Of a stretch of 64,000 nucleotides of DNA, positions 36,443 to 39,129 are shown one piece after another. Origin of the DNA: Sulfurovum sp. TSL6 (lineage in GTDB: Bacteria; Campylobacterota; Campylobacteria; Campylobacterales; Sulfurovaceae); the NCBI RefSeq assembly GCF_019972115.1, contig NZ_BPFJ01000002.1, positions 558,001 to 622,000 on the forward strand, given 5' to 3'. A program made the position numbers and the translations under genes. Position 1 is the first letter of the stretch; each line of letters starts with the position of its first letter. The notes beneath the pieces are model-generated. The model did not search any database, was not told the DNA's origin, and worked only from the letters and a program-made list of their open reading frames with translations.

Positions 36443-36517
36443 GGCCCCATCGTCTAGCGGTTAGGATCCATGGTTTTCATCCATGTTACAGGAGTTCGAG
36501 TCTCCTTGGGGTCACCA
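36443..36517 (+). tRNA. tRNA-Glu(TTC), copy 1
   Basis: A 75-nt cloverleaf with acceptor GGCCCCA/TGGGGTC, anticodon stem CATGG/CCATG around TTTTCAT (anticodon TTC), T loop TTCGAGT and encoded CCA. Confidence 0.96.
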
Positions 36518-36547: not shown

Positions 36548-36622
36548 GGCCCCATCGTCTAGCGGTTAGGATCCATGGTTTTCATCCATGTTACAGGAGT
36601 TCGAGTCTCCTTGGGGTCACCA
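36548..36622 (+). tRNA. tRNA-Glu(TTC), copy 2
   Basis: Identical over all 75 bases to the copy ending 30 bases upstream, and followed by different sequence. The two are probably co-transcribed. Confidence 0.96.
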
Positions 36623-37032: not shown

Positions 37033-38973
37033 CTATTTTGAGTTGGATAAAGAAAAAGCATATGTTGCTTCTTTGAAATAGTCAGAGGATTTTAGCTCCT
37101 CTGTATGTTCAGCTTCCAAGAAGCGTTTTTCAAATGCATCATCTTGCAAAGGTCCTGAAAAATAATAACCCTGTAAAATATCGCATTTTTGATCAACAAT
37201 AAACTTGCGCTGTTCCTCATTCTCAATCCCTTCTGCAACAATTTTTAAATTGAGGTTTTTAGCTATAGTAAAGATCGTTTCAATGAAACATTTGTCTTCA
37301 TTATCTTCAAGATGATGTAATTCAGAGATGAAAGACTTGTCTATCTTGATTTCATTGATAGGCAACTGTCGAAGATAACTTAAAGAGGAATATCCTGTTC
37401 CAAAATCATCCATTGAAAAACGAATACCGTAATTTTGAAGGATCCTCATGTTTTCGATCAGTTTTGTTATATCATCCGCAACGGAAGTCTCTGTAATTTC
37501 AAAGACTATTTTTGATCGTTGTTCCTTTGTAAGATAGATGTCACAAAGCTGTTTCACATCGTGAATAAAATTATAATGAAAAAGTTGTCGCATACTGACG
37601 TTAATAGACATCTGTTGTAACGCAATACCCTTCTCTTCCCACTTTTTAAATGTGAGAAAAGCTTCTTCTAATATATAATATCCCAACTCTATAATGAATC
37701 CCGTTTTTTCAGAGATCGGTATAAATTCAGTAGGACTGACCTCTCCTAATGTTTCGTTGTCCCAACGTGAAAGGACTTCGCAACCGATTATTTCATTCTC
37801 AGGATTATACTGTGGCTGGTAGGTCAATGATATTTCGTTATTTTGAAGTGAGAAATGTAATAAACGTTCTATTTCAAGTTTCCATTCGACATCTTTTGAA
37901 AGTGTATCATTGAAGAAGATAATGCCGTTTCTTCCTTTTCCTTTAGCCTCATACATGGCGATATCTGCTTCTTTGATGAAGGTGCTGGCTTCCATTTTGG
38001 GATCACTGATAATACTCACACCGATACTGGCACTAATATATAAAGAGTGCTCTTCTATATGGTAGCTTTCTCTGATCAATGCCAGTAACTTCTCCGCAAA
38101 CTGTGATGCATGATGAAAACACTCTTTCTCCGTAGCATAGGAAGTACTGAGAATACAAAACTCATCTCCGCCAAGACGGGATACAAAATTTTGATGCTCT
38201 TTACAAAGAGTGAGCATACGCTTGGCTACTTGACAGAGTAACACATCCCCAATATCATGGCCTAAAGTATCATTAATGGTCTTAAAATGATCAAGATCGA
38301 TCAATATCAAATAGATATGTTTATGGTCCTGTTTTTGGCTTTTCATAGCATCATTGAGAAGTTCGATAAAATAGCGTCTATTTCCAAGTAAAGTTAAAGG
38401 GTCATGATAGGCCTGGTACTGACTTTTGATCAGATAATTAAAAGTATTGTGTGCAGCATATAACAAAACACCACTTAGAACAATCGTAAAAAAAGCCAAT
38501 AGATAGCTGTAGAACTCACCGACCAAGATAAAATACATAGTCAAAGGCAGCATAAGTGTGCCCAAAGTAAACACAGCCAGCTTTTTCTGTGAAGCCAAAA
38601 TGGTTGCAGAGACAACAGCGCAACCCAATTGGGTTGCAATGGCCACATAATGTAACTCTATATCACTGCGTGATGTATATATCAGGAACATCACTGTCCA
38701 AATAGAGAAATAGCTAAATAAAAAATACCTCAGTTGCCCAAGCCACTTTTCTTTTTGCTGTATATTAAGATCATTATCAGCAAAGGTTCTATGTAATCGA
38801 TATCCCCAAAAAGAGAGTAACACTACAAGAGAAAACCATAAAAATTCAGGAAGCAAAGAAGAAGAATAGAGCCATCCTATATAAAGATACCCCATTCCAG
38901 TGCCGGCAAATAATGTAATCACTACAAGTATCTGTTTCTGCATAAAATCATAGAAGTTCATATTGTCGAGCAT
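37033..38973 (-). CDS. Membrane GGDEF-EAL protein (c-di-GMP turnover)
   Basis: The protein has 646 residues from ATG 38973, which has TAAGG six bases upstream; an earlier frame start at 39090 falls inside a structured leader. About six hydrophobic helices (1-190) form a membrane sensor. The GGDEF domain has intact RLGGDEF and no RxxD inhibitory site before it. The EAL domain retains the needed residues (EVLSRW, INVSMRQL, FEITE, MDDFGTGYSS, KIDKSF, AEGIE), so both synthase and phosphodiesterase activity are plausible. It is preceded by a GEMM-like RNA, which suggests feedback by c-di-GMP. Confidence 0.9.
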   Translation of the reverse strand: MLDNMNFYDFMQKQILVVITLFAGTGMGYLYIGWLYSSSLLPEFLWFSLVVLLSFWGYRLHRTFADNDLNIQQKEKWLGQLRYFLFSYFSIWTVMFLIYTSRSDIELHYVAIATQLGCAVVSATILASQKKLAVFTLGTLMLPLTMYFILVGEFYSYLLAFFTIVLSGVLLYAAHNTFNYLIKSQYQAYHDPLTLLGNRRYFIELLNDAMKSQKQDHKHIYLILIDLDHFKTINDTLGHDIGDVLLCQVAKRMLTLCKEHQNFVSRLGGDEFCILSTSYATEKECFHHASQFAEKLLALIRESYHIEEHSLYISASIGVSIISDPKMEASTFIKEADIAMYEAKGKGRNGIIFFNDTLSKDVEWKLEIERLLHFSLQNNEISLTYQPQYNPENEIIGCEVLSRWDNETLGEVSPTEFIPISEKTGFIIELGYYILEEAFLTFKKWEEKGIALQQMSINVSMRQLFHYNFIHDVKQLCDIYLTKEQRSKIVFEITETSVADDITKLIENMRILQNYGIRFSMDDFGTGYSSLSYLRQLPINEIKIDKSFISELHHLEDNEDKCFIETIFTIAKNLNLKIVAEGIENEEQRKFIVDQKCDILQGYYFSGPLQDDAFEKRFLEAEHTEELKSSDYFKEATYAFSLSNSK

Positions 38974-39016
38974 GTCATACCTTAAAATAGTTCTTAAGAA
39001 AATAGTTGTACTGTTT

Positions 39017-39108
39017 GTGTGACCTGGCGATCTTTTATTGACTGTATATATAGTATATCCAAGACCCATGGCTTTCTGGCCCCGTCTCACGACAGGTGTA
39101 GCATTTTA
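39017..39108 (-). ncRNA. GEMM-like (c-di-GMP-I type) riboswitch candidate
   Basis: In the 5' leader of the GGDEF-EAL gene the RNA holds CCTGTC-GTGA-GACGGG, a hairpin capped by a GNRA tetraloop. An AGAAAGCCATGGGTCTT segment follows, then a 24-base spacer and AAGATCGCCAGGTCAC. The order and much of the sequence match the c-di-GMP-I riboswitch: ACC, GNRA stem, GGG, CAAAGCC, GGGTCT, then GAT-GCC-GGGTT. The core is diverged (GCTACACC where GGCAAACC is usual), with GCT/AGC replacing GGC/GCC as a paired change. A TATAAT lies at 39124-39129, putting the likely start a few bases before the fold. Downstream, CTTAA/TTAAG could hide the ribosome site. Confidence 0.6.
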
Positions 39109-39123
39109 CGAAAAGTATCTTGC

Positions 39124-39129
39124 ATTATA
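39124..39129 (-). promoter_or_regulatory. -10 element of the GGDEF-EAL transcript
   Basis: The minus strand reads TATAAT in a strongly AT-rich upstream region. A start about seven bases downstream (near 39117) would give a leader of about 145 nt that begins right at the GEMM-like fold. Confidence 0.5.

Follow-up and report, generated by a model that had tools for sequence, protein, structure and literature searches.

Residues that contact c-di-GMP have been described for the Vc2 riboswitch aptamer of Vibrio cholerae (RF01051 type), namely G20, A47 and C92, together with a universally conserved interhelical pair (PMC4744006). The contact residues are equivalent across the class I switches Vc1, Bc1 and Cd1 (PMC4744006, PMC11218506; for the G20 equivalent of Cd1, PMC9262584), and Vc1 showed that intact contact residues are no guarantee of tight binding (PMC4744006). 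Variants that sense c-AMP-GMP are marked by the change of a key ligand-pocket nucleotide (PMC9481103). This change was taken here as G20A, with A at base 20 marking the cGAMP form (as read from PMC9481103 and PMC6274999).

The locus compared with these systems lies in a window of 64,000 nt from Sulfurovum sp. TSL6 (NZ_BPFJ01000002.1, positions 558,001 to 622,000). All aptamer, leader and gene features given below are on the minus strand of the window, and core bases follow Vc2 numbering.

Family membership of the leader element

A search with cmscan showed an RF01051 (Rfam c-di-GMP-I) match at 39112-39015 of 44.2 bits against a curated cut-off of 35, with an E-value of 2.3e-5 scaled to the whole window. 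The aptamer (39014..39112) also scored 70.3 bits with the genus model R1, of which the window copy is one of the 16 sequences. The minus strand carries the elements of a c-di-GMP-I riboswitch leader in the order TATAAT, 5' strand, GUGA-capped stem, AAAGCC, GGGTCTT, spacer and AAGATCGCC-AGGTCAC. The first-pass annotation had recognised this order by eye and had suggested a search with the RF01051 covariance model; the sequence and the match agreed with it. It had also named a lack of covariation and of any score above noise as evidence against its proposal, and both covariation and a score above the cut-off were found. A chance match was excluded because of the RF01051 E-value, the 16 sister copies in the genome and the covariation in homologues.

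The leader element is very probably (about 0.88) a c-di-GMP-I (GEMM-I) riboswitch in a Sulfurovum form with a C21-G46 core pair, and binding of c-di-GMP is predicted. This explanation draws on covariance-model membership, a conserved and covarying fold, the unchanged bases at the ligand contacts and the purifying selection that acts on the aptamer. The RF01051 features present were a score above the cut-off, G20/A47/C92, C44-G83, and covarying stems with a GNRA loop. The aptamer is a slightly unusual but otherwise unremarkable representative of the known class I family.

The subfamily c-di-GMP-I-GGC (RF03167) belongs to the same clan and is reportedly a family defined by Weinberg in 2017. Its model gave the window aptamer a good raw score of 54.8 bits, higher than that of RF01051, and three sister copies in the genome passed its cut-off. 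However, the window copy stayed below that cut-off (59), and the G47 of the RF03167 consensus is A in the window and in all 155 homologues. Membership of this subfamily instead of RF01051 was rejected on the cut-off and on position 47, in a comparison made with the Rfam model only, and is scarcely probable at all.

Core positions and covariation

The window copy was aligned with the other copies from its genome and genus, which produced 155 distinct RNAs, nearly all of them from Sulfurovum and a few from two other genera with RF01051 matches. The ligand contacts were conserved in nearly all copies: the G20 equivalent (39102) was G in 154/155, the A47 equivalent (39075) was A in 155/155 and the C92 equivalent (39019) was C in 153/155. 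The C44 equivalent (39078), which forms the interhelical pair with G39028 (G83), was C in 154/155, and both columns were invariant in the 16-row alignment of the own genome.

Bases C21-U22 (39100..39101) pair with A45-G46 (39077-39076) and are swapped relative to the GC/GC of the RF01051 consensus. Pair 21-46 was C-G in 154/155 of the related RNAs, while pair 22-45 was CG in 117 and UA in 35, i.e. covarying. A paired change of GGC/GCC to GCT/AGC had been described in the first-pass annotation; the paired change is present, but C21-G46 plus U22-A45 is the more accurate description, with G20 itself unchanged. Since C21-G46 recurs in nearly every copy and 22-45 covaries, most of this apparently changed core is, on the aligned copies, the norm of the lineage, with C21-G46 fixed in the genus and U22-A45 a common covarying form.

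The P1b hairpin (39081..39096) has a GUGA (GNRA) loop at 39090-39087 and showed both-sided changes in homologues at 6/6 pairs. The P2 stem (39022..39073), whose internal loop resembles a tetraloop receptor and whose apical loop (39060-39035) is long and variable, showed them at 7/12 pairs. Genus-wide, both-sided changes were found in 14/20 pairs, and 97.4% of pair cells held standard pairs, compared with 87.7% in shuffled and at most 52% in slid controls. None of the 500 shuffled controls reached either the pairing or the number of both-sided changes; relatedness of the rows weakens the shuffled controls and is preserved in the slid ones. The covariation that the first-pass annotation had proposed to seek in orthologous leaders came from paralogous copies across the genus, Sulfurovum sp. 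AR being the sole orthologous leader with an aptamer.

Compared with Vc2, the window aptamer has the same fold, GNRA-capped P1b, receptor-like P2 loop and position in an mRNA leader, and G20, A47, C92 and C44-G83 are all present. It differs in having C21-G46 and U22-A45 where Vc2 has G21-C46 and C22-G45, and in its C24/C43 inner loop, C90, A93, weak P1 and long P2 apical loop. Compared with Vc1, Bc1 and Cd1, the contact residues are equivalent, whereas the expression platforms and genes are others.

Internal-loop bases 23-25 read ACA and bases 42-44 read GCC, and the base differences were as the first reading of the sequence had them. C24 (39098) is coupled with C43 (39079), so that a pyrimidine-pyrimidine combination replaces A-A or A-G. 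Among the 155 RNAs the combinations were AA in 141, AG in 7, CC in 4 and CU in 3, with no mixed cases; A24 thus went with a purine at 43 in 148 RNAs and C24 with a pyrimidine in 7, a rare and strictly coupled change in the first stem's inner loop (Fisher P = 9e-9 for C24 versus non-A43, uncorrected for relatedness of the RNAs). A non-Watson-Crick contact within the aptamer could be tested cleanly on this naturally occurring coupling. The C24 pattern occurred in 3/298 genomes of the class, all three of the genus Sulfurovum. The C24 copies sit upstream of genes for a LamG-like surface protein, an FG-GAP surface protein and a further exported protein (the first and last named by sequence inspection). 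By these neighbours the 24/43 subtype is tied to diverse surface-protein genes and not to one pathway.

Two neighbours of C92, C90 (39021) and A93 (39018), also depart from the commonest form in the genus: position 90 was C in 3/155 and position 93 was A in 25/155, and both bases are common to the window copy and Sulfurovum sp. AR. The departures at C24, C43, C90 and A93 could give weaker or tuned binding. That C24 with C or U at 43, together with C90 and A93 here, defines a Sulfurovum GEMM-I subtype of shifted affinity or dinucleotide preference which sets the level of the c-di-GMP-metabolising enzyme is unlikely.

The different core had led the first-pass annotation to consider that the RNA might be a GEMM-fold variant for a different ligand, such as 3',3'-cGAMP or some other dinucleotide. 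The departures at 24/43, 90 and 93 do lie near or below the pocket, and the RF03167 cut-off was missed and that of RF01051 exceeded only modestly. However, the base that switches specificity is G here: the Geobacter 3',3'-cGAMP (GEMM-Ib) riboswitches share the fold and have A at base 20, whereas the window has G39102 and 154/155 of the RNAs have G, so that the G20A change is absent. A47 and C92 are intact and C21-G46 is genus-wide; C21-G46 is also present in the structurally characterised cGAMP aptamer of Geobacter. In addition, the 24/43 subtype stands before diverse surface-protein genes, and the GGDEF domain encoded downstream keeps the usual GHDIGD motif and does not resemble a Hypr cGAMP synthase (by sequence inspection only). 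With G20, A47, C92 and C44/G83 all unaltered and the core swap fixed across Sulfurovum, the new-ligand reading was rejected as the best explanation. Such a variant is very unlikely, and a different ligand preference of any kind in the window aptamer is improbable.

The GGDEF-EAL gene and its leader

The gene downstream (37033..38973, ATG start) encodes a protein of 646 aa with GGDEF (Pfam, E 3.4e-44) and EAL (E 1e-59) domains, and the motifs GGDEF, DDFG and related ones are readable in its sequence. The proposal of a c-di-GMP-class switch before a GGDEF-EAL gene was supported by RF01051 and by Pfam. No inhibitory RxxD site was seen at its usual position on inspection of the sequence. With a complete GGDEF domain and an EAL domain, the protein may synthesise c-di-GMP, degrade it or just bind it. 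A longer ORF of the generic list starts at GTG 39090 and runs through the aptamer; it is not the likely coding sequence, and ATG 38973 is preferred. Since the MLDNM start at ATG 38973 is common to the orthologues and follows a conserved AAGG, the aptamer is leader and not coding sequence.

The closest orthologue was that of Sulfurovum sp. AR (88% protein identity). In a search of 49 orthologue and relative loci, the aptamer stood upstream of the gene in Sulfurovum sp. AR only, and no aptamer was found in the other orthologues with a readable leader. Sulfurovum orthologues at loci L095, L096 and L112 (79-80% identity) and at L097 and L099 (67-68%) were without it, the last two lying downstream of a tRNA-Ala gene like the gene in the window. 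Because orthologues at a conserved locus lack the aptamer and only Sulfurovum sp. AR shares it, the aptamer was probably gained before the GGDEF-EAL gene within a small clade, and the link would be recent and narrow. A c-di-GMP feedback loop on this gene, limited to two of the sampled species, is plausible; the window copy would then couple the enzyme directly to its own product or substrate.

Tandem tRNA genes with equal Rfam scores were found just 3' of the gene (36443-36514 and 36548-36619) and were assigned as tRNA-Glu by comparison with L094. Two tRNA-Glu genes also lie 3' of the gene in L097, and the tRNA-Ala/tRNA-Glu frame is conserved in Sulfurovum sp. AR and the aptamer-free L097. A GGDEF-EAL paralogue (48% identical; C1:495373-497247 of the same genome, L056) showed no aptamer within 200 nt upstream.

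Comparison of the window with Sulfurovum sp. AR showed that 60/60 bases of the aptamer core were identical, against 71% identity upstream, 58% in the apical loop, 65% in the linker to the ribosome site and 85% in the coding sequence. The P2 stem was identical although its apical loop was so at only 58%. Complete core identity beside flanks and an apical loop at 58-71% shows that the RNA is under purifying selection. The same comparison bears on whether the aptamer is a decayed or non-functional passenger in the leader. Its weak P1, its low score among the 17 genome copies and the single other species with an aptamer-bearing orthologue fit decay, and another copy in the genome, at C2:493685, is indeed decayed. 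Nevertheless, the identical core amid diverging flanks and the intact key bases make decay of this copy highly improbable.

The predicted c-di-GMP-I switch is preceded by a TATAAT -10 element (39124..39129), as the first-pass annotation had stated, and an equal element stands at equal distance in Sulfurovum sp. AR. A generic promoter scan of the leader gave no signal above shuffles. From the position of the TATAAT, the transcript would start at about 39119-39116, just 5' of the fold, and the RNA would therefore begin with the P1 strand. The 5' strand of an extended P1 (39108..39117; UACU plus UU, GU) pairs weakly with the 3' strand (39009..39018). This stem, which closes the junction, has about 8 pairs with two mismatches and is retained in Sulfurovum sp. 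AR, with arms UACU/AGUA in the window and AUACU/AGUAU in that species.

An AAGG Shine-Dalgarno sequence (38980..38983) lies 6 nt 5' of the conserved ATG and is kept in Sulfurovum sp. AR (L031/L094) and in L032/L095, L096 and L112. A hairpin of CUUAA (38998-38994) and UUAAG (38985-38981) spans this site (38981..38998) and is a weak candidate expression platform. The first-pass annotation had suggested that it masks the ribosome site; the hairpin exists, but it is not tied to the aptamer. In folding of the window leader it formed with or without the folded aptamer, AAGG was paired in both states under constrained folding, and no ligand-state-dependent change at the ribosome site was predicted. 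It was also absent from the sole orthologous leader with an aptamer (L031/L094), where CAUAC/GUAUG could pair instead, so that the downstream hairpins differ between the two aptamer-bearing leaders; a similar hairpin was found in the orthologous leader L032/L095, which is without the aptamer. Being neither conserved nor state-dependent, it was rejected as the switch. A transcription terminator was also rejected as platform, since none was found in the leader, whereas Bc1 uses terminators. With no terminator and a short gap to the ribosome site, control at translation is more likely than control by termination.

The mRNA for a membrane GGDEF-EAL protein probably begins with this riboswitch. By analogy with Vc2-type switches, c-di-GMP would dock at the three-way junction (G20, A47, C92) and stabilise P1. 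This would change how accessible the AAGG site is to the ribosome, some 30 nt further on, and would tie the output of a c-di-GMP-metabolising enzyme to the c-di-GMP level.

Copies in the genome and genus

A total of 17 RF01051 matches above the cut-off were found in the 2.25 Mb genome (contigs C1 and C2). The search of relatives, which took in 36 Sulfurovum genomes, showed up to 21 matches per genome and any match in 3/22 genera. The other switches of the genome precede PAS, hybrid histidine kinase, outer-membrane, DUF4382 and FG-GAP/surface-protein genes; PAS, kinase, outer-membrane and surface-protein targets make up a typical GEMM regulon. Of the other copies in the data set, the closest (C2:472508) lies in the same genome, before an FG-GAP surface-protein locus. 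Overall, this widespread genus of sulfur-oxidising Campylobacterota leans heavily on c-di-GMP-I riboswitches, and no paper describing c-di-GMP riboswitches of Sulfurovum was found in the literature searched.

A c-di-GMP-I aptamer at L026 (1119-1193) lies some 250 nt 5' of an ORF resembling threonine synthase, as named by sequence inspection, and its true target may be something between the two. Finally, three tandem pairs of c-di-GMP-I aptamers were found, at L017 (3594-3819), L019 (1284-1588) and L024 (4185-4404), the second copy of the last being degenerate with A at position 20 and altered junction bases.
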